Assembly: GCF_019603315.1 (NCBI RefSeq)
Contig: NZ_CP080649.1
Location: forward strand, 697,501 to 761,500
DNA length: 64,000 nt
Direction: 5' to 3'
Origin: Ruficoccus sp. ZRK36
Lineage (GTDB): Bacteria > Verrucomicrobiota > Verrucomicrobiia > Opitutales > Cerasicoccaceae
Below the pieces are notes generated by a model. It was not told the origin of the DNA and did not search any database. It saw only the letters and a program-made list of their open reading frames with translations. Positions 4,028-12,488 of the stretch are shown here, piece after piece; the first letter of the stretch is position 1, and every line of letters begins with the position of its first letter. A program made the translations under genes and the position numbers.

Positions 4028-4948
4028 CTAGCGCAGGCTGGCCCAGAGCTTTTCCAATGCGGTCAGGTAGCGCTCCTGCGTCTTGGTGATGACTTCCTCC
4101 GGCAAGGAAGGGCCAGGGTAGGATTTGCCCCAGTCAAGCGTCTCCAGATAGTCGCGTACGTATTGCTTATCAAAAGCAGTCTGCGAGCGGCCCGGCTGGT
4201 AATCCTCACGCGGCCAGTAGCGGGACGAGTCCGGCGTCAGCACTTCGTCGATCAGGTGCAGCTCGCCCTCGGCATCCGTCCCAAACTCGAACTTCGTGTC
4301 GGCCAGGATGAGGCCGGACGATGCGGCCTTCTCGGTACCCATACGGAAAATCTCCAGGCTCACGCTCTGGATACGGTCATAGACCTCCGCCCCGATGAGT
4401 TCCTTGGCCCCTGGCTCGTCGATCGGCATGTCGTGCCCCTCGGCAGCCTTCGTCGTCGGTGTAAACAACGGCTCGGGCAGCTGCGAGCTCTCCTGCAGGC
4501 CCGTGGGCAGATCGAGCCCAAAGAGCTTACCGGTGGTCTTGTAATCCTTCCACCCGCTCCCGGCCAGATAGCCGCGCACGACCGCCTCCAGCTTTACCGG
4601 AGTGAGCTTCTTGACCAGCATGCTGTACGGGATGAGGTGCGGGAAGCTCTCCCCCAGCAGCTCCTGCAGGGCCGCATCGTGGTCGGGCACCAAATGATTG
4701 GGGATGAGCGACTCCGTCTGCCGGAACCACCACAGGCTGGCCTGCGTCAGCAGGATACCCTTACCGGGGATGCCGTCAGGGAGCACCACATCAAAGGCTG
4801 AGAGCCGGTCTGTGGCGATCAACAGGAGGCGATCTCCCAGATCATAAATCTCACGGACCTTGCCCGAGCCGATATGCCGGAAGGGCAATCCTATCACTGC
4901 ACGCATGGCCTGCCGGGGCAGCGCCGCCTTGACGTCATCGAAGGTCAT
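4028..4948 (-). CDS. purC: Phosphoribosylaminoimidazole-succinocarboxamide (SAICAR) synthase
   Basis: Joins aspartate to CAIR in step seven of de novo purine synthesis, using ATP. The ~306-residue protein shows the family's GKVREIYDLGDRLLLIATDR start, AFDVVLPDGIPGKG, VVRGYLAGSGWKDY and LIDEVLTPDSSRYWP. I chose the ATG at 4948 (MTFDDVKAA); a GTG two codons upstream is the alternative. Neither has a strong ribosome site. The gene converges with the exosortase gene, leaving only 19 bases between stops. Its length is that of the larger, yeast/verrucomicrobial-type PurC rather than the ~240-residue enterobacterial form. Confidence 0.96.
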   Translation of the reverse strand: MTFDDVKAALPRQAMRAVIGLPFRHIGSGKVREIYDLGDRLLLIATDRLSAFDVVLPDGIPGKGILLTQASLWWFRQTESLIPNHLVPDHDAALQELLGESFPHLIPYSMLVKKLTPVKLEAVVRGYLAGSGWKDYKTTGKLFGLDLPTGLQESSQLPEPLFTPTTKAAEGHDMPIDEPGAKELIGAEVYDRIQSVSLEIFRMGTEKAASSGLILADTKFEFGTDAEGELHLIDEVLTPDSSRYWPREDYQPGRSQTAFDKQYVRDYLETLDWGKSYPGPSLPEEVITKTQERYLTALEKLWASLR

Positions 4949-5084: not shown

Positions 5085-5162
5085 GTCCCCATCGTCTAGT
5101 CAGGTCTAGGACACTGGATTTTCATTCCAGCGACCGGGGTTCGAATCCCCGTGGGGACGCCA
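5085..5162 (+). tRNA. tRNA-Glu (anticodon UUC)
   Basis: A full cloverleaf can be drawn: acceptor GTCCCCA pairs with TGGGGAC (5152-5158), the anticodon stem CTGGA/TCCAG encloses the loop TTTTCAT with anticodon TTC, and the T arm contains GGTTCGAATCC. Discriminator G5159 is followed by an encoded CCA (5160-5162). The 3' part of the gene, from 5131, is the left copy of the 36-bp repeat bounding the integrated element, so the tRNA was the integration target and stays intact after insertion. Confidence 0.97.
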
Positions 5163-6411
5163 CTTTCCCGCCTGTGTCAGGCGGGGTCAAGACGGCGCAA
5201 ACTGCATCAGATTCAACAAGTTCCGAAACGGAATTTTCGTGATCATTTATGTCACGTTTTGTCAGGATTTTGCCCGAGATACCAGAAATCTGTGACCCTA
5301 TGTGTGACCCTTTTTCGAGCGCGGGCAGTGCCTCGACTTTCTCAAAGAGCCGCAGGTGGTGCGTATCGGTGTAAATCTTCGAGGTCAGGCGCTCGTCCTG
5401 ATGGCGCATTAGCTCCATCGCTTCTCGCTGCGTCACGCCGTTGACCTGCAAAAACGTGCCCCAAGTATGCCGCAGGGAATGGAAGTCCACATAGCGGCCC
5501 TCCTCGTCCTGATAAGCGATCCCGGCAGCCTCGAGGTCCTGCCTTAACACATCCGCACGCGGAATGCCCTTCTGGAACACCAACTCGCCCGGCTGGGCAT
5601 TCGCAGGCTTGAACTTCTCCAGTGCCTCACGCACGTCCGCCATAAGCGGCACAAAGCCTTCCTTACCGTTTTTCGTAGTCGAGGCCCGCGCCGCCACAAA
5701 AGGCCGCTCAGCAGTCAAATGAACATCCGCCCAGCGCAGATTACCCATTTCCTGCCGCCGCAAGCCAGATCGGCCCGCCAGATGGTAAACCATGCCCCGA
5801 TAAGGTGGCGCCACTGCCAGCAGCCGCGCAAACTCGGCATCACTCAAGGCCCGGCGCTTACGAACCTCCTTGCCACGCTCCTGCACCTTGACCACTGAGC
5901 GCAACGGATTATGCGGGATGCGCTCCATCTTCACCAAGGCATTGAAGAACACATTCGCCGCATCCAGATAATCGTTAAGCGTGGCCGGAGCGAAGCCCGT
6001 CTGTCGATTGCGCCAGAGAATAAACGAATCCGCCGTCACATTACCAACCGTGCGCCACCCACAACCTTTCATCAGCCGCTTAATGCGCCCCCGGTACTTG
6101 ATCAGCCCTTCGTCATTGCGCCCCGCCTTTTGACGCTGCTTGAGATCGGTCAGAAAATCTTCCAAGTGCTCAGAGAGGGGCTTTTTCACGCCATCCCGCA
6201 ACGTCTTGGGAGGTAACAGCCCCGCCTGCTCGGCCTCCCACTCTTTGCGGAATTCATCGGCCAACTTGTCCGCAACTTCCTTTTGCGTCACTTTGAGCGA
6301 CTTCCACTTGTCCACCAACATTTCGCCGTAGCGATACCGCAGGTAATAGCACTTGCTCAGCATCCGCTTGCCGTTGATCGATTTGGGCTTCTTTTGAACC
6401 TTGTGAATCAT
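5122..6411 (-). CDS. int: Tyrosine-type site-specific integrase whose 3' end lies in the att site
   Basis: A 429-residue tyrosine recombinase. N-terminal arm/SAM-like region is residues 1-165; the catalytic domain has Arg218 (GLRRQE), His311 and Arg314 (FHSLRHTW), His337 (LMRHQD) and nucleophile Tyr347 (SKIYTDT). After about residue 365 the chain leaves the fold and reads through left-end DNA; residues 417-427 (VASPRGFEPRS) are encoded by the 36-bp repeat and the stop TGA comes six bases further, inside the tRNA. The start overlaps the upstream excisionase-like gene by four bases. In the circular form the same frame continues into 12452-12138, giving a predicted protein of about 532 residues. 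Function: integration and excision at tRNA-Glu. Confidence 0.95.
   Translation of the reverse strand: MIHKVQKKPKSINGKRMLSKCYYLRYRYGEMLVDKWKSLKVTQKEVADKLADEFRKEWEAEQAGLLPPKTLRDGVKKPLSEHLEDFLTDLKQRQKAGRNDEGLIKYRGRIKRLMKGCGWRTVGNVTADSFILWRNRQTGFAPATLNDYLDAANVFFNALVKMERIPHNPLRSVVKVQERGKEVRKRRALSDAEFARLLAVAPPYRGMVYHLAGRSGLRRQEMGNLRWADVHLTAERPFVAARASTTKNGKEGFVPLMADVREALEKFKPANAQPGELVFQKGIPRADVLRQDLEAAGIAYQDEEGRYVDFHSLRHTWGTFLQVNGVTQREAMELMRHQDERLTSKIYTDTHHLRLFEKVEALPALEKGSHIGSQISGISGKILTKRDINDHENSVSELVESDAVCAVLTPPDTGGKVASPRGFEPRSLE
5131..5166. repeat. attL: left 36-bp direct repeat (tRNA-Glu 3' end)
   Basis: Identical over 36 bases to 12453-12488. It covers the T arm, acceptor 3' strand and CCA of tRNA-Glu plus six bases (last CA and CTTT region) beyond. 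It is also the DNA that encodes the last residues of the integrase on the minus strand (VASPRGFEPRS). Confidence 0.93.
5283..5312. repeat. Left arm-type repeat pair
   Basis: Contains two GTGACCCT units 12 bases apart in the same orientation and matches 12371-12400 at 28 of 30 positions. Placement at both ends of the element, inside the att sites, fits arm-binding sites of a tyrosine integrase. On the minus strand it encodes the peptide HIGSQISG of the integrase tail. Confidence 0.55.
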
Positions 6412-6587
6412 GCCAGACCTCCCTTCAGGATACGCTCAATATCTTCCAGAGGGATACGGACACACCCGCGAACTTTGACCTTTCGAAGCATGCCGTCTCG
6501 CAACATCCGGTTGATCGTCGAGACGGAGACCTCGAGCAGACCTGCGGCTTCGTTTTTGTTAGCAAGTTTGTGTGGTTTGTGCTCCAT
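6408..6587 (-). CDS. Excisionase-like small helix-turn-helix protein
   Basis: A 59-residue protein of the MerR/excisionase helix-turn-helix type: KLANKNEAAGLLEVSVSTINR forms the recognition region and VRIPLEDIERIL the closing helix. Such proteins bend DNA and bias the integrase toward excision. A GGGAGG ribosome site lies eight bases upstream of ATG 6587. The gene overlaps the preceding stop by one base (TGATG) and the integrase start by four bases (ATGA), so the genes are translationally coupled, as usual for xis-int pairs. Confidence 0.8.
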   Translation of the reverse strand: MEHKPHKLANKNEAAGLLEVSVSTINRMLRDGMLRKVKVRGCVRIPLEDIERILKGGLA

Positions 6588-7348
6588 CAGATTGCCTCCC
6601 GCTCTTGGGGTTCGACCGGCAGACGACCTTCAGCTAGCGCCCGTGAAATCGGTGGCAGTGTCGCCAAGGCCTCACGGCGTATTTGCTCCGCCCGTTCATT
6701 CGGGACCAGCTTGCCCTCGACACAGATCGCACCCAACAACGGAAGGTGCATTAGGTCCTCGGCAAAGCGTTCAAGAAATTCACGGTACTCGACGTCGTAG
6801 TACTTCGAGACGGGCTTGGAATCATAATGTCCCAGTTTATTAAGGAACAAACATCCATATGCGTGTGGCGACTTTTTGCACGTCTTCTGGAGCTCCCTGG
6901 AAAAGGTCTTAGTGCGCTTTCGGACTGTAGCAACTGGCGTCAAATTTACCCTCTGGCCATCCGCGTGATCCAGCATTTGATCAAAGACACCCGTATTGTG
7001 GATGGAAGCACTGCGAACATGATCCCACTCAAGACTGTCCAGGCATTCGTAAAACTCTTCATTGGTCTCGAATGGCAATGACTGCCCACACATGGCCATT
7101 GGCCCGTCATTGTACTCCAGATCGAGCGTCGGCTTCTTGCCGTCAAAAACCATGTAGTAATCGACATCATCCGGAAAAACTCCGTCCAGATAATCGACCA
7201 GCGCCTGCATGTCCTCCAGACACTTCCCCGCCAAGCCGGGGATTTTCTCTATGACGGTTTCTCTGTCTACGAAAAGGAGTCCGTCTTCAGACTGAGCCAG
7301 AGCTGCGGAATCCTTGAGTGAGTGATTGAGCTCGAAGATATTTATCAT
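6587..7348 (-). CDS. Hypothetical element-encoded protein
   Basis: A 253-residue acidic, soluble protein that I do not recognise. It has no signal peptide or membrane segment. I chose ATG 7348 because AAGGAGG lies seven to eight bases upstream and because the ATG overlaps the preceding stop (ATGA, 7345-7348); a reading frame 16 codons longer exists but lacks these signals. Features include FPDDVDYYMVFDGKKPTLD near the middle and KTFSRELQKTCKK. Its place in a coupled four-gene run ending in the integrase suggests a role in element maintenance or excision control. Confidence 0.7.
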   Translation of the reverse strand: MINIFELNHSLKDSAALAQSEDGLLFVDRETVIEKIPGLAGKCLEDMQALVDYLDGVFPDDVDYYMVFDGKKPTLDLEYNDGPMAMCGQSLPFETNEEFYECLDSLEWDHVRSASIHNTGVFDQMLDHADGQRVNLTPVATVRKRTKTFSRELQKTCKKSPHAYGCLFLNKLGHYDSKPVSKYYDVEYREFLERFAEDLMHLPLLGAICVEGKLVPNERAEQIRREALATLPPISRALAEGRLPVEPQEREAI

Positions 7349-7689
7349 TCTCGTTTCCTCCTTCTCCTGGGTTTTGTGGTTATTTCCTTTTGCCACGCCG
7401 GAGTCGTCCTGACCGCCTTTCGGCTTTCTGCGATGAACTCAATCAACTGCTTTTCGGATTCCTTTTGCTCTTGGGTCGACCTGTTTTCGACTACGCTCTC
7501 TAGATATAGTAATGTTATTTTAGCTAATAGTGCGGACCGGGTCAGACGGGTGCAGACACCCAGCGTGTCAACAGCAGCTTTCTCCTCCTGGCTCAGCGTG
7601 AAGCAAACGGGCTTGTCCCGGGGACTTTGAATATCCACGGCCTTGCGGCGTCCGGTTTTCTGGCGAGGAGTTTCCTGCTCAACTGTCAT
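7345..7689 (-). CDS. Small basic protein, possible ribbon-helix-helix regulator
   Basis: A 114-residue protein with basic ends (KTGRRKAVD at the N-terminus, KPRRRRKRE at the C-terminus). The centre, CFTLSQEEKAAVDTLGVCTRLTRSALLAKITLLYL, is arranged like a short strand followed by two helices, as in ribbon-helix-helix DNA-binding proteins of the CopG/MobC kind. This is inference from pattern only. It is the first gene of the coupled run to the integrase and begins six bases from a perfect 10-bp inverted repeat (7695-7720), a natural autoregulatory operator. Confidence 0.55.
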   Translation of the reverse strand: MTVEQETPRQKTGRRKAVDIQSPRDKPVCFTLSQEEKAAVDTLGVCTRLTRSALLAKITLLYLESVVENRSTQEQKESEKQLIEFIAESRKAVRTTPAWQKEITTKPRRRRKRE

Positions 7690-7694
7690 TTCTA

Positions 7695-7720
7695 TATCTT
7701 AAACATATAAGTTTAAGATA
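7695..7720. promoter_or_regulatory. Perfect inverted repeat, candidate operator
   Basis: TATCTTAAAC (7695-7704) and GTTTAAGATA (7711-7720) are exact reverse complements separated by six A/T-rich bases. The site lies between the endonuclease stop and the start of the 7345-7689 gene, where the promoter of the integrase operon must lie. No Shine-Dalgarno sequence separates it from the ATG. Confidence 0.6.
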
Positions 7721-7739
7721 CAAGTAAAATCTCTCACTC

Positions 7740-9065
7740 CTAGGACGCCAACAGCTCAACAGCATCAAAGCTGTTGTACAGATCACCGAGATTTCTGGAA
7801 TTAATGCGAAATTGGCTTCGTCGCTTTATCTTGGCACGACCAGTTGACCAATTCTCTCCCTTTATACCTGGATCATAGTAAACCGAATCCTTGCTCATGG
7901 CCGACAGGAACATGGTAAAATCCGTCCCTCGTCCCGTAAAAATAGTGCCCCCGTACTGATATTGTCTTGAATCCAAAACCTGGCACATCGAGGGAATATA
8001 GGCAGCTTGGGCGTGCTTGCGCGACCAGTGCTCAACCAATGCCGGGAACGGCCATTTGGCGGCAATATCCGTTCCATTTGTCAGTACGATTCCACCCTCG
8101 AAGTCCGTAATCTTATTCGTAAACGGGCAATAGCCGTCCAATTTCAGAAATAGCCCCGTCCCGGCATGAACTGAATTTGCTTTGTGAACGCCGCCAAAAT
8201 TCATCCTATCAGGCCTCCCTCTCTTGTCCGGGTAGCCATATTTCCGCAAGAATGCCTCAACGCCTTGTTCGGCATAGTAACCGCCCGTAGGCTCGGGCGT
8301 CATAAGTGTGATGGTTGCCACACCTAAAGGGTCAAATCTGGCAACGTTGTATTGCTTGATTTCCCAACCAAGGTAATCCGGTTCCGCCCGACCATTGGGG
8401 ATAACGCCCAACTCGGCCTCCAGTGTGTACCCTCCGCAATTCGGTGCCTCGCATGGACCGGTTGACCCGTCAGCCAACAGCCTCTTTGAATTTATCCAGC
8501 CACATTCGTGAATACGCCGCAGTTGCGCAATCAACTGCTGATAGGGCGACAAAATTTGAGACTCGCTGAGCAGTAGTTCCAAAAAGACCCCTACACATTC
8601 AAGGCCCGTCTGCGATTCAAGCTCTCGGGCAACCCGGCTTTCCCGGCCACAGGCATAGGCAAGGATTTCACCGGTATCGCAGATTCCCAACACAAGGATA
8701 CGCCCCTCATCCCTTGATGCCATGATGGAGGATGGAGCCAATTTACATCTCTTGAGAAAGCCGGACATACGTACCTCAGGGTATTGGGGATACAATATCA
8801 ATTGGCTGTCTGGAGCCTTTTCCCGCTGGCCGTTTTCACCCACCCAGAATAAATCCAGCGGAGCCTTATATCGCCACTTGTCTCTCTTCACATTGTGCTC
8901 CCTTTGTATTCCCTTGTAGGGCAGGATATTCAGGGCTGACAAATTCCCGGCCAAATAGACTTGGTTCTTGGAATTATCATTGGGAGCCAGCTTTTTGATA
9001 AAAATACGTTTCGCGCCCAGATCAGTGAGAACATACTTGATGCGGGATAGGCTGATATCGTCCAT
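7740..9065 (-). CDS. MvaI/BcnI-family type II restriction endonuclease
   Basis: A 441-residue protein. The C-terminal half carries the MvaI/BcnI signature, GYTLEAELGVIPNGRAEPD followed by YLGWEIKQ, in which Asp230, Glu235 and Lys237 form a PD-(D/E)XK-like catalytic site. The first ~165 residues are an additional N-terminal domain that I cannot name. MvaI cuts CCWGG and BcnI cuts CCSGG as monomers, so CCNGG-class specificity is expected. The gene ends the dcm-vsr-endonuclease run, 11 bases after vsr. The Dcm-like methyltransferase 0.5 kb upstream would protect the host. Confidence 0.85.
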   Translation of the reverse strand: MDDISLSRIKYVLTDLGAKRIFIKKLAPNDNSKNQVYLAGNLSALNILPYKGIQREHNVKRDKWRYKAPLDLFWVGENGQREKAPDSQLILYPQYPEVRMSGFLKRCKLAPSSIMASRDEGRILVLGICDTGEILAYACGRESRVARELESQTGLECVGVFLELLLSESQILSPYQQLIAQLRRIHECGWINSKRLLADGSTGPCEAPNCGGYTLEAELGVIPNGRAEPDYLGWEIKQYNVARFDPLGVATITLMTPEPTGGYYAEQGVEAFLRKYGYPDKRGRPDRMNFGGVHKANSVHAGTGLFLKLDGYCPFTNKITDFEGGIVLTNGTDIAAKWPFPALVEHWSRKHAQAAYIPSMCQVLDSRQYQYGGTIFTGRGTDFTMFLSAMSKDSVYYDPGIKGENWSTGRAKIKRRSQFRINSRNLGDLYNSFDAVELLAS

Positions 9066-9076
9066 TTGTACTCCTG

Positions 9077-9532
9077 TTAGCGATTTCCCCCTTCGAGGCA
9101 GAGAGCATAGCTGTCAGACTTTAGCCAAGAATCAATCATCGTCACAACGGCTTCAATTCCAATTGAACGCTTACCTTTCAGGGCGCATTCCCAGAGTGTG
9201 CATACCCGCCACCCCATTTCGGCAAGACGTTTTCGCGTTTCCATGTCCCTGTGTTTGTTTTGAGCGAGCTTGTTTTTCCAGAATTCAACGTTGGATTTTG
9301 GCCATTTGAACAACGTACAATCGTGCTGATGCCAAAAGCATCCGTTAACAAAAATAACGGCATTATATTTTTTCAACACAATATCCGGCTTCCCGGGTAT
9401 CTTATTGCCATGAAGCCGATAACGGTAACCCAGCGCAAACAAACCAGAACGCACCAAAATTTCGGGTTTGGTGTTCTTGTTCCTGATACCCCGCATCATC
9501 CGACTGCGGGTCTGCCCGTCGACAACGTCCAC
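9077..9532 (-). CDS. vsr: Very short patch repair endonuclease
   Basis: A 151-residue Vsr protein. It nicks beside T:G mismatches produced by deamination of 5-methylcytosine at Dcm-type sites. Visible elements: MRGIRNKNTKPE at the N-terminus, the catalytic Asp50 in PGKPDIVL, and the zinc-site cluster NGCFWHQHDC (Cys65, His70, Cys72), then FWKNKLAQNKHRD. It starts two bases after the methyltransferase stop, so the two are translationally linked, which is the usual pairing of vsr with a C5-cytosine methyltransferase. Confidence 0.96.
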   Translation of the reverse strand: MDVVDGQTRSRMMRGIRNKNTKPEILVRSGLFALGYRYRLHGNKIPGKPDIVLKKYNAVIFVNGCFWHQHDCTLFKWPKSNVEFWKNKLAQNKHRDMETRKRLAEMGWRVCTLWECALKGKRSIGIEAVVTMIDSWLKSDSYALCLEGGNR

Positions 9533-9534
9533 GT

Positions 9535-10824
9535 TCAGGCAGGAATATTGATGTAAGTTTGCCTTTGCACCCGTTCGGGCTCCTTCAGAGCCATGACATG
9601 AGGCTTCATGATTTTGGCAATGGCAGTCACGACCGGAACAACCACGGCATTTCCGAACTGCTTGTACGCTCTGGTGTCGGACACGGGGATCACCGTTTTG
9701 TGCGTATCATTATCGAAGCCCATCAACCTGGCACATTCCCGCGGAGTCAGTCTTCTTGGATTCTTGCGAATTCCCTGAGATACAAGTATCTCACTGCCAT
9801 CCTTGTAGTAACGGGCAGAAAGCGTACGGCTTGTATCCTCAGGCTGAACCAGACCGTAGCCGAAACCATTCCCGCTGGCCTTGTGCTTGGCTGCATAATC
9901 CTGGAGGTATTGCCAAAGATGGTCCGAAAGCGTGTACTTGTCTGCCACTTTGGCCTTGGGGCCCGAAGTATAAGGCTCTTCAGGCATTTCCGAACCATCC
10001 TCTGGATGAAGAATAGAATTTAGCTTGGGGCCTTTCTTCAAGTCAGGCAGTTTAAGGTCATTCCAGGAAAACGCGGTCTCACTCCTGAATCCGACTATAA
10101 AAGTACGCTCGCGATGCTGCGGAACGAAATGCTTCGCATCGACAACCCGGTGGCTTTCGTCGCCACTTCCAACAATATAGCCCAGCTCTCTGAGGGTATT
10201 GATAATGACCTGAAACGTTTTGCCTTTGTCATGGGATTTCAGGTTTTTCACATTTTCCAGCAAAAATGCAATCGGTCGCTTGGCCTTCAGTATCTGAACG
10301 ATATCAAAAAACAGTGTCCCCTGTGTCTCATCTTCAAAACCGTGCTTTCTTCCCAAGGAGTTTTTCTTTGAAACCCCTGCAATACTGAATGGCTGGCAAG
10401 GGAAGCCGGCAACAAGCACATCATGGGCTGGGATTACGGACTTATCCTGAACCCCCTGGATATCGCCCACAATCTCATGATCGATCGGAAAATTTGCGCG
10501 ATACGTCTTCTGCGCATAGCTGTCCCACTCACTGGTAAACACGCATTGGCCACCAACTGCCTCAAAGGCTAATCGCATACCACCAATACCGGCGAATAAG
10601 TCAATAAACGTAAAGTCATGGGCACCATTTGCATTGTTTGATCGAGGATAGAGCATCTCTCTCATCATGGGGAGATATGCCTGAATAGGCTGCGAGTCTC
10701 CATGCTCCCAGCGTTGAATCGTTTTTGGAGCCACCCCAAGGCGGTCTGCGATTTCAGCTTGCGTGTACATACGTCTTAATGCGCTTAGGTACCATTCAAG
10801 TTCATTTTTAAACTCTCTGGGCAT
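9535..10824 (-). CDS. dcm: DNA (cytosine-5) methyltransferase, Dcm-like, with N-terminal regulatory HTH
   Basis: About 429 residues from ATG 10824 (upstream ATGs at 10836 and 10845 are in frame). An N-terminal helix-turn-helix, YTQAEIADRLGVAPKTIQRWE, precedes the C5-methyltransferase motifs FIDLFAGIGGM (I), AGFPCQPFS (IV, catalytic Cys143), LLENVKNL (VI), QHRERTFIVGF (VIII) and RRLTPRECARLMGF through KQFGNAVVVPV (IX-X). The region between motifs IV and VI and GNGFGYG...TRTLSARYYKDG is strikingly like E. coli Dcm, which methylates CCWGG. The HTH extension suggests autorepression, as in SsoII/EcoRII-type enzymes; a fitting palindrome overlaps the putative promoter. Protects the element's host from the linked endonuclease. 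Confidence 0.93.
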   Translation of the reverse strand: MPREFKNELEWYLSALRRMYTQAEIADRLGVAPKTIQRWEHGDSQPIQAYLPMMREMLYPRSNNANGAHDFTFIDLFAGIGGMRLAFEAVGGQCVFTSEWDSYAQKTYRANFPIDHEIVGDIQGVQDKSVIPAHDVLVAGFPCQPFSIAGVSKKNSLGRKHGFEDETQGTLFFDIVQILKAKRPIAFLLENVKNLKSHDKGKTFQVIINTLRELGYIVGSGDESHRVVDAKHFVPQHRERTFIVGFRSETAFSWNDLKLPDLKKGPKLNSILHPEDGSEMPEEPYTSGPKAKVADKYTLSDHLWQYLQDYAAKHKASGNGFGYGLVQPEDTSRTLSARYYKDGSEILVSQGIRKNPRRLTPRECARLMGFDNDTHKTVIPVSDTRAYKQFGNAVVVPVVTAIAKIMKPHVMALKEPERVQRQTYINIPA

Positions 10825-10829
10825 AATTG

Positions 10830-10844
10830 TGGACATTCTGTCCA
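10830..10844. promoter_or_regulatory. GGACA-N3-TGTCC operator candidate of the methyltransferase
   Basis: TGGACA (10830-10835) and TGTCCA (10839-10844) form a perfect 6-bp inverted repeat with a three-base centre. From memory, the operator bound by the HTH domain of the SsoII methyltransferase has the same GGACA-N3-TGTCC core. The palindrome covers the proposed -10 element. Confidence 0.6.
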
Positions 10845-10861
10845 TTTTATGTCCCTGTCAA
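10833..10861 (-). promoter_or_regulatory. Putative promoter of the methyltransferase operon
   Basis: On the minus strand a perfect -35 TTGACA (10861-10856) is followed after 17 bases by GAATGT (10838-10833), a weak -10. Transcription would start within a few bases of ATG 10824, giving a leaderless or nearly leaderless mRNA, which would explain the lack of a ribosome site. Confidence 0.4.
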
Positions 10862-10977
10862 TTGTCTTTGTGGTCAAGAACTGACGCCGCAAGATTATTT
10901 AGTGATACAATTAGACTTGAATTTGCTGTGAGCAAGAGGAAACAACCAAAACGAGAAAGACTTTTCGGCTCACCATT

Positions 10978-12138
10978 CTATGCTTTAATGTGCCGTTTAA
11001 TGCGAACAATCGGCTCATGTCTACCGCCCAACACAACTGCCAGTTCAAGCGGTGTAGCATCTGCAAAGGTCTTGAGCAGGTTCAGTGCGTGGTAGGCCCA
11101 TTTCTTGCCAAGGCGTTCCTTTAGGGCATCGAGTGAATCGCAGCCGAGAATGTGGGCGAGTTGGGCAACGAGCTTGCGCCACTCCCTACCGGTATCGAGC
11201 CACGCGAAGGTTTGCGAGACGGCGCGCCAGCCCCGTGAGTAACGGACCATGCGGGCACCTTTGAATTGCTCTCCCCGGAACTGGCTGCCTTTCTCCAGGT
11301 ATTTGCCGACGTACTTGGCAATGCCTTCGGCGTTGGAGCGGATCGGCAGGAGTTCGCACCGGCCAAAGCCGTAATGCCCGGCAACCTCTCGAAGGTGTAC
11401 CCAGAGGTGGCGAAGTTCAGGGGAAGCGGTGGAAGCATATTGCTTGAGCAGTGAATAGAAGCGGGCAGTTTTGCCGTTGGTGCGGTATTCGTTTTGGCAT
11501 TCCCGAAAGGCCGTGAAGTCAAAGCCCGTGCGAATGTCCGACCGGCACACCACCACCAGATGATAATGCACCGCCCCGCGCTTCTGTGGTTCGACCACGA
11601 TCACCCACGCTTCAAAGTTCTTGCGCAGGATGTTTGTCGCCAGCGAGTTGAACCGGCGTTGCGCTTCGCGGAAGTCCGTCACGTTATCGGCAAAGGTCAG
11701 CGTCAGGAATCCTAGCCGCTCGATCCCAAAATGATTGGCCATGTACTCGATGTTCTTTTCCAACGCGAAGTTCTTCTTGAGTTCACCCTGAGTCGGAGGC
11801 CCGAAACGGCGTTGTGACCCGTCCGGCAGGTTAAGCCAGATTCTAGGCCCGTCCACCTTGTGAACCATCTCCGGCGGGTGTTGCCTCAGAGCATTCGCTG
11901 CCTCTGTTATTGAGTTGTTTTTCTTTAGACAAGGAAGGGCGGCTGCGCCGCCCTCGGGGCCGCCGGGCAGTGCGGGCACGCCCTCCGGCGTGCTCCGCGC
12001 TGCCTCGTCGTCCCTCGCGGGAGCTTGACAGCTACTCGTTGGCCGAATGTAATCAGCACTATTCGAGAGGTTTTCCGCTTCCGATGTTTGCCCTTCGCCG
12101 TGTTGCCGCATGGCAGGGGCTTTTTTGCGGGTGCTCAT
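10978..12138 (-). CDS. HUH-type (rolling-circle) replication initiation protein
   Basis: A 386-residue protein with the motifs of rolling-circle Rep enzymes: motif 1 FLTLTF (residues 144-149), the metal-binding HUH motif His191-Tyr-His193 in AVHYHLVVV, and motif 3 AKYVGKYLEKG with candidate nucleophiles Tyr276 and Tyr280. The first ~75 residues are Pro/Ala-rich and probably disordered. Such proteins nick the plus origin and attach to the 5' end during plasmid or phage replication; some also act as relaxases. The start ATG overlaps the stop of the right-end frame by four bases (ATGA, 12135-12138), so in the circular form it is coupled to the integrase frame. Confidence 0.82.
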   Translation of the reverse strand: MSTRKKAPAMRQHGEGQTSEAENLSNSADYIRPTSSCQAPARDDEAARSTPEGVPALPGGPEGGAAALPCLKKNNSITEAANALRQHPPEMVHKVDGPRIWLNLPDGSQRRFGPPTQGELKKNFALEKNIEYMANHFGIERLGFLTLTFADNVTDFREAQRRFNSLATNILRKNFEAWVIVVEPQKRGAVHYHLVVVCRSDIRTGFDFTAFRECQNEYRTNGKTARFYSLLKQYASTASPELRHLWVHLREVAGHYGFGRCELLPIRSNAEGIAKYVGKYLEKGSQFRGEQFKGARMVRYSRGWRAVSQTFAWLDTGREWRKLVAQLAHILGCDSLDALKERLGKKWAYHALNLLKTFADATPLELAVVLGGRHEPIVRIKRHIKA

Positions 12139-12485
12139 TGGGCACCTCCCCCGGTTGGCGGGTTAACGTCATCGACTGGGCCTAGAGCCAGTCCCGCCGC
12201 CTGCTTCCGTGCCTGAGCAAGCGAGCCAGAAGGCACGCTGTCTTGCTCAGCACGGGGCGGCTCCCCATCGACCCGGCCAACCTCGACAGTCGCACGGATG
12301 ACCTGTCTTTGTCCGGGCGATAGATGCGGCCATGACTCAACCACCTTTGCCAGCAGGTGCCAGTCGTTATCAGAAATCTGTGACCCTATCAGTGACCCTT
12401 GCTCGGGACAACTTTCGCAACCTAGCGGGTCATCAGCACCTTGTATATTTTCCGACCGGGGTTCGAATCCCCGTGGGGACGCCAC
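12135..12485 (-). CDS. Right-end frame that would complete the integrase in the circular form
   Basis: An open frame of 116 codons beginning in attR; the only start is a GTG (12483-12485) without a ribosome site. The first 11 codons encode VASPRGFEPRS from the att repeat in the same frame used by the integrase at attL. Joining the ends by excision therefore fuses integrase residues 1-427 to the 105 residues encoded here (ENIQGADD...). The segment includes QGSLIGSQISD, mirroring GSHIGSQISG of the integrase, and WHLLAKVVESWPHLSPGQRQVI, a helix pair that I recall from C-terminal tails of related integrases. Whether it is translated in the integrated state is doubtful. Confidence 0.55.
   Translation of the reverse strand: MASPRGFEPRSENIQGADDPLGCESCPEQGSLIGSQISDNDWHLLAKVVESWPHLSPGQRQVIRATVEVGRVDGEPPRAEQDSVPSGSLAQARKQAAGLALGPVDDVNPPTGGGAQ
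12371..12400. repeat. Right arm-type repeat pair
   Basis: Matches 5283-5312 at 28 of 30 positions, in the same orientation, with two GTGACCCT units at a 12-base period. It lies 53 bases inside attR. Candidate integrase arm-binding site. Confidence 0.55.
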
Positions 12486-12488
12486 TTT
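12453..12488. repeat. attR: right 36-bp direct repeat
   Basis: Exact copy of 5131-5166. The bases to its left do not form the rest of a tRNA, so this is the displaced copy generated by integration, not a second tRNA gene. Confidence 0.93.

Follow-up and report, generated by a model that had tools for sequence, protein, structure and literature searches.

Attachment (att) sites inside the gene of the cognate integrase are said to be known in very few integrative elements (PMC4701971). The closest described case is phage Mx8, where attP, the site of the free form, lies inside int, and where integration swaps a C-terminus of 112 residues for one of 13 and leaves a less active integrase (PMC4701971). 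The position of attP within int and the exchange of the tail are also described in PMC4383910, and a 2018 review presents the change as altered specificity and as a switch (PMC6070905). Here we analysed a 64,000-nucleotide stretch of Ruficoccus sp. ZRK36 (contig NZ_CP080649.1, positions 697,501 to 761,500; "the window"), which holds a 7.3-kb element directly after a tRNA-Glu gene. An initial annotation of this DNA had observed that the integrase (Int) gene of the element spans the att site, and this observation is correct. Taken jointly with the mechanism proposed below, we think it rather probable that the element is a tRNA-Glu-integrated, plasmid-like element whose entire attP (P arm, core and P' arm) lies inside the int reading frame.

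Integrases of the SSV type also have the att site within int; their gene is split by integration and whole in the free form (PMC8371274). Their C-terminal part bears the catalytic domain, whereas the window Int holds it in one piece within residues 1-427. We set the element apart from these suicidal integrases, as integration does not separate its catalytic domain from the N-terminal part. Repressors of mycobacteriophages and of M. abscessus prophages have attP in a coding gene whose C-terminus is cut by a stop at attL (PMC8092301). There the gene is a repressor and the lost tail an ssrA-like tag; we set our element apart from them because its gene is int and no degradation tag was seen. The initial annotation had drawn its analogies from SSV-type integrases and from such phages; the closest precedent is Mx8 and not SSV. 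It had not noted that the tail has homologues, that arm-like repeats lie in the coding frame, or that int and rep overlap. Streptococcal integrative and conjugative elements in rumA have att within a serine integrase gene, whose C-terminus differs by state (PMC4701971), and differ from the window element, a tyrosine recombinase at a tRNA target, in both recombinase and protein-gene target. For ICEKp1, joining of the element ends alters the expression of int, which thus differs between the integrated and the excised form; the change concerns the promoter and not the protein, and the abstract makes no mention of attP inside int (PMC13023037).

Mx8 and the family described here both have attP inside the coding frame of a tyrosine integrase and exchange its C-terminus upon integration. 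The Mx8 protein contains a GLEP peptide resembling, by eye, the tRNA-antisense core peptides of the family, with about 100 residues after it. However, our family Int profile did not hit Mx8 Int, the hairpin motif is missing from it, and the tail profile reached at most −1.2 bits. The genome of Mx8, a tailed phage, has 49.5 kb, whereas 21 of our 24 in-frame elements measure 4.5-9.6 kb, most with a rolling-circle rep right after the long int. By its architecture the family appears to work like Mx8, an analogy; we do not assign it as a homologue. What seems new compared to Mx8, judging from sequence, is a widespread family in Verrucomicrobiota and Planctomycetota, a conserved tail, a putative attP that is wholly coding, and an overlap of int and rep. 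Among the papers listed by literature searches in a largely open-access collection, none gave an account of attP inside int in these two phyla, nor was the arrangement mentioned in passages of PMC12884075.

The integrase frame across the attachment core

Both ends of the element are exact 36-bp copies of the tRNA 3' end. Read leftward, the gene order is rep at the right end, a methylase, Vsr and restriction set, two unknown open reading frames (ORFs), an HTH_17 protein and int. The features on which the argument depends are the following.

5085..5162, plus strand: tRNA-Glu (ttc), the target gene, whose 3' end is the att core (ARAGORN)
5131..5166: attL core, encoding Int residues 416-427 (36-bp exact repeat)
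12453..12488: attR core, 36 bp identical to attL (36-bp exact repeat)
5122..6411, minus strand: int, short integrated form of 429 aa, tyrosine recombinase (PF00589, E 1.9e-18; conserved residues)
5371-5373, minus strand: codon of the catalytic Tyr347 of int (conserved residue)
12138..12452, minus strand: C-terminal extension of 105 codons, in frame, joined to int in the circle only (stop 12135-12137)
12270..12371, minus strand: conserved part of the tail, a predicted two-helix hairpin with the motif LA..V...W..L (alignment and structure model)
5280..5317, minus strand: P-arm-like site within int, a tandem GGGTCACA pair with a 12-bp period; the 24-nt match ends 122 bp from the core
12368..12405, minus strand: P'-arm-like site within the extension, a matching tandem pair; the 24-nt match begins 52 bp from the core
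10978..12138, minus strand: rep, replication initiator of rolling-circle type (PF23343, E 2.3e-10)
6408..6590, minus strand: small HTH_17 protein, probable excisionase (PF12728, E 8.5e-9)

The int frame passes through the core and then reads two host codons (LE) in tRNA DNA before its stop. On the attR side this frame continues from the core through another 105 sense codons (12452 to 12138) up to a TGA, while the other two frames are open beyond the core for 9 and 5 codons only. Joined in the circle, the frame would run for 532 codons from the ATG. The initial annotation had read the same two protein forms, a 429-residue Int ending two codons after the attL repeat and a circle form of about 532 residues; both readings were borne out, with the core encoding residues 416-427.

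R218, K247, H311, R314, H337 and Y347, which we take to be the catalytic residues, were invariant in all 27 aligned Ints. The window protein carries the R, K, H-x-x-R, H/W and Y of lambda-type tyrosine integrases (PF00589), and Tyr347 lies about 68 residues N-terminal of the core. These data support the proposal of the initial annotation that integration would exchange just the C-terminus of Int and leave the catalytic domain whole. The initial annotation had also suggested that activity in integration and excision could vary with the state of the element.

The window lies on contig C1 of the host assembly (G000). In G001, of the same genus, the tRNA-Glu is found beside purC with a single core copy and no Int of the family within the 13 kb read around it. 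G003, another member of the genus, was rejected as an empty site when a profile search found a broken Int of the family there, and G001 alone was therefore used for the insertion boundary. The fragments in G003 (L156, 2399-3256, plus strand) run into the same tRNA-Glu, a site used earlier. An ORF beside the tRNA of G002, taken for another integrase, was dropped for want of a Pfam match. The host contig C2 (L019, G000:C2:1-6050, 6,050 bp), considered as an excised circle, turned out to be a laboratory expression vector and is not evidence. Its LacI, His-tag/thrombin leader and kanamycin marker, named from translations, mark it as contamination.

Relatives with a coding attachment site

The extension alone was searched in 88 genomes and matched in five, including G000. 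From these loci we obtained six elements with tRNA att pairs, four in G000 and one each in G007 and G072, while the stretches of G002 and G022 gave none; in all six the frame continues over the core into 64-110 codons. Relatives were added as 80 loci from named genomes (the best 80 of 421) and as 20 stretches around Ints of a phylum-wide search, in which 19 of 240 genomes matched at E 1e-40 and part of the matches was fetched. Altogether 102 int genes were examined. A tRNA lay at the 3' end of 76, into which 70 ran antisense, and a tRNA-anchored second core was present in 27. With L025, L014B, L130 and L046, which have no tRNA of their own in the stretch (L130 and L046 came to attention through hits of the tail profile), this makes 31 elements, and in 24 of them the frame continues into a motif-bearing tail. 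The search for in-frame right-end extensions in tRNA-bound integrases, proposed in the initial annotation, has thus revealed a large family. Among elements of the clade with both ends found, attP inside int is, as judged from their frames, the commonest arrangement.

The 24 in-frame elements cover ten tRNA isotypes, and their core peptides indicate that the core is read in each of its three frames. L032 and L076 have Ns at the join and were left out of scoring; L081, a degenerate case with a second core copy within the int frame, was dropped. Among the 26 scorable tail-bearing elements, 24 in frame correspond to a binomial p of 5e-10 against one third, with kinship ignored; for tRNA-anchored elements only, the count is 20 of 22 (hand-calculated p about 3e-8). 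No two of the long proteins share more than 66% identity, hence the 24 include no duplicates. Of the tail-bearing Ints, 22 were included in a tree of 91 Ints, where by inspection they were scattered over the leaf order. The elements come from Verrucomicrobiota, Phycisphaerae (L065) and Pontiella sulfatireligans (L082), among others.

Some of these loci have peculiarities of their own. L014 (3569-16077) holds two tandem elements at one tRNA-Asn, whose shared core is read in different frames, both open. The core copies of L071 (near 4696-4712 and 239-255) differ by one base in a G-run, and the int frame of its circle hinges on the place of the crossover. L091 (8978-10860) and L096 (9244-10678) are mini-elements of 1.4-1.9 kb, in which two cores enclose a tail, a short rep and an int shortened at its N-terminal end; they were counted among the 24, as int end, core and tail frame are present.

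The conserved tail and the repeats around the core

The structure model of the window tail has helices at residues 28-43 and 46-61, a block with a predicted local distance difference test score of 88-97 over residues 31-60, and little structure elsewhere. W and L of the motif were invariant in an alignment of 15 rows, and the part after the hairpin varied in length and sequence. A hidden Markov model (HMM) built from the first six tails scored 16 further in-frame tails with E values from 1.3e-4 to 3.5e-13 (set of 29 sequences). Tail differences at codon positions 1, 2 and 3 numbered 155, 107 and 184 (366 codons, five chosen pairs), with p 7.5e-6 for position 2 against position 3. The simplest reading is that the tail is under selection as part of the fused protein. 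Of the indirect evidence, such selection would argue most strongly for the existence of the circle and for the importance of the long form.

Proteins in which Int and tail are contiguous were found in L128 (int1) and in the phage-like contig L110. L128 (7371-10278) carries two integrase genes back to back at a tRNA-Met, the first with the contiguous tail; the tRNA-like stretch within int1 does not correspond to the adjacent tRNA-Met, and int1 stands outside the 102 ints counted. In the model of the 573-aa L110 Int, a strand-helix domain at the N-terminus is followed by a confidently predicted catalytic domain, a region of low confidence at 423-535, which includes a weakly tRNA-like part, and a terminal hairpin. 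This layout suggests that the stretch encoded by attP may act as a linker joining enzyme and hairpin. A Foldseek search ranked XerA first and listed lambda Int (1z1b) with 397 columns and a template modelling score of 0.39 by query.

A scan of viral_contigs with the window Int gave no relative. The alignment as query gave 22 distant loci, and the L110 Int gave four, including L145, the query contig itself. Of the 22, 18 were checked for tRNA-like sequence in int (the weakest, L118-L121, were left out), which flagged L105, L111 and L112. L111 was dropped, as its frame end does not resemble an integrase. The tRNA-like sequence scored 31 bits in L105, over the gathering score of 29, and 15 bits in L112. 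L110 was not flagged; the peptide and an Rfam match of 20 bits, under the gathering score, are the grounds for its tRNA-like stretch. In L105, L110 and L112 such a stretch is followed by about 75-105 codons, with the hairpin motif in L110 alone. Thus L105 (11174-11232, minus strand) and L112 (10741-10761), both phage-like contigs from IMG/VR, have antisense tRNA-like sequence in a long integrase ORF and no hairpin motif. An attP inside int may be commoner in phages. Contigs of G002 that end within int (L123-L126), considered as a sign of coexisting attP and attL, proved to be near-identical repeats of one Int and are likewise outside the 102.

Lambda-like integrases bind arm-type sites that flank the core in a paired layout. 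When the final 230 bp leading up to the core were compared with the 200 bp that follow it, every one of the 24 elements showed a common 24-nt stretch with 18-24 matching positions. Pairings of different elements, our control, gave a mean of 15.8 and a 95th percentile of 19, which 20 of the 24 exceed. Between the end of the P copy and the core lie 110-147 bp, and between the core and the start of the P' copy 24-66 bp; the best internal period was 12 bp in 20 of 24, compared with 16% of random segments from the same stretches. We had considered the window repeat (5280-5317 and 12368-12405) as a duplicated integrase tail; this was rejected, and paired, putative arm-type sites fit the pattern of the 24 elements better. 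L083 shows the same geometry in non-coding DNA (24/24 nt, at 136 bp and 40 bp), while the repeat of L132 is weak (17/24 nt). The geometry therefore looks like a property of the DNA site, to which the read-through would be an addition. Near-fixed distances between arm-like sites and core, combined with three reading frames through the core, make the family a natural experiment on how constraints on a DNA site and on a protein coexist.

A proposed switch and its alternatives

The ATG of the window rep overlaps the stop of the long int as ATGA (12135-12138), and the stop of the HTH_17 gene overlaps the int ATG in the same way (6408-6411). The circle would have the order xis-like gene, long int, rep, with ATGA overlaps at both junctions. 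In 12 of the 24, a count without a chance control, a start codon and the stop of the long int overlap by 4 nt. The start codon lies 5 nt before that stop in three elements, including L065 with a 111-aa ORF only, and 14-17 nt after the beginning of the stop in two; a downstream ORF of at least 100 aa near the stop is missing in seven. For the window and 15 others (L065 left out), 14 of the 16 downstream proteins match the Rep families PF23343, PF02486 or PF01446 at E 0.05, 11 of them at or above the Pfam cut-off. The window Rep is above that of PF23343, as befits an integrative rolling-circle plasmid. Integrative plasmids of the pSAM2 type carry xis, int and rep on an element that integrates into a tRNA gene. 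To our knowledge, attP inside int is not among the features of pSAM2. The window Rep is weakly RepSA-like, below the Pfam cut-off, and REP_ORF2-G2P fits it better.

We propose that the long Int of 532 aa would be the form acting on the circle, that is, in integration, with the hairpin as an accessory contact held on a flexible, attP-encoded linker. Integration would strip the hairpin and leave a catalytically complete but altered Int, which would need the HTH protein or other help for excision. The direction of this change in activity is taken from Mx8. The same crossover would part rep from the int message and damp Rep translation in the integrated state, so that a single recombination event would set directionality and replication state together. 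On balance we favour this mechanism of truncation and uncoupling as a whole. A more tentative step, which we regard as possible rather than probable, extends it to a widespread family of Verrucomicrobiota, Planctomycetota and Kiritimatiellota, in which integration would be a two-output switch with no separate regulator: removal of the hairpin would set direction, and the break between int and rep would switch replication on in the circle and off once the element is integrated. Should the tail determine directionality, the reverse reaction of these integrases would be damped by the product itself, and such enzymes would be useful for one-way DNA insertion. A real coupling of rep to int would explain how small plasmids of this kind, after integration, hold their rolling-circle initiator silent.

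Several observations weigh against the proposed switch. No circular molecule turned up in the phage and plasmid collections or in the 240 phylum-wide genomes searched, and those collections held no free or close relatives of the element. Among the matches listed from the 240 genomes, none reaches past model position 431 of 516, save L128 int1 at 482. The window rep has its own Shine-Dalgarno sequence and may be translated without coupling to int. L083 and L132 have an int that ends before the core, att outside int and no tail; the tail is thus not required by every relative. The tail motif of L033 lies in another frame than int, and L071 is, in our reading, in frame only with the attL copy of its G-run. 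A broken frame in relatives was the opposing case foreseen in the initial annotation: it is clear in L033, depends on the G-run copy in L071, and the frame is intact in 24 of 26. The arm repeats of L014B, L067 and L130 equal the 95th percentile of the control and that of L139 falls below it. Against all frames of the loci, the six-tail HMM matched L046, L082, L038 and L065 weakly (E 0.02-0.17). Some in-frame start codon precedes the motif in 18 of 24 tails (ATG in 10).

Could the tail be a true C-terminus of Int that mainly brings ribosomes into rep, with little effect on recombination? The 4-nt overlap in half of the elements and the variable part after the hairpin would suit this explanation. 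We nevertheless consider it unlikely, in view of a hairpin that is conserved at the protein level and predicted to fold. The motif is moreover kept in L051, L091, L137 and L139, which lack the 4-nt overlap, and in the seven elements lacking a downstream ORF of at least 100 aa.

The tail might instead be a degron or autoinhibitor in the circle, whose removal on integration gives an active, stable Int. The mycobacteriophage repressors, activated by loss of a C-terminal ssrA-like tag through an exchange at attP, are a model for this (PMC8092301). No ssrA-like ending was seen, by eye, among the C-terminal six residues of the 24 long forms, however, and in Mx8, the closest case, the change goes in the opposite direction, to a less active Int after integration (PMC4701971). 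We judge this alternative improbable.

Equally, the right-end frame could be a separate small gene upstream of rep, for copy control or as a leader, whose fusion to int is incidental. The 4-nt overlap with the next start, the in-frame start codons of the 18 tails, and the tail HMM match at the far end from int in integrated elements would be expected from such a gene. In the integrated state, however, the motif is not preceded by any in-frame ATG, GTG or TTG in six of the 24 tails, and only two have a start codon accompanied by at least 4 nt of Shine-Dalgarno match. With a convincing start so rare, translation of the tail seems possible only in the circle, as part of Int. That it keeps frame with int across three core frames, and that contiguous Int-tail proteins occur in L128 int1 and L110, makes a separate gene very improbable.

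A frame that is open by chance where GC content is moderately high, or left over from an older integrase, is hardly credible and already contradicted by the comparative data. Length is by itself weak evidence: a frame as long was open in 3.7% of 300 dinucleotide shuffles for the window extension, and in fractions of 0.04-0.33 across the 22 of 24 in-frame elements shuffled. We exclude chance because the tail has homologues and the in-frame junction, with motif, recurs in 24 of the 26 scorable tail-bearing elements, and the codon positions carry a signal.

The remaining annotated genes of the element are cargo.

9535..10845, minus strand: C5-cytosine DNA methylase with an N-terminal helix-turn-helix (HTH)
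9077..9532, minus strand: Vsr endonuclease
7740..9065, minus strand: restriction endonuclease of MvaI/BcnI type

Together (7740-10845), the MvaI/BcnI-type endonuclease, Vsr and the C5 methylase with its own HTH form a complete-looking restriction-modification set.

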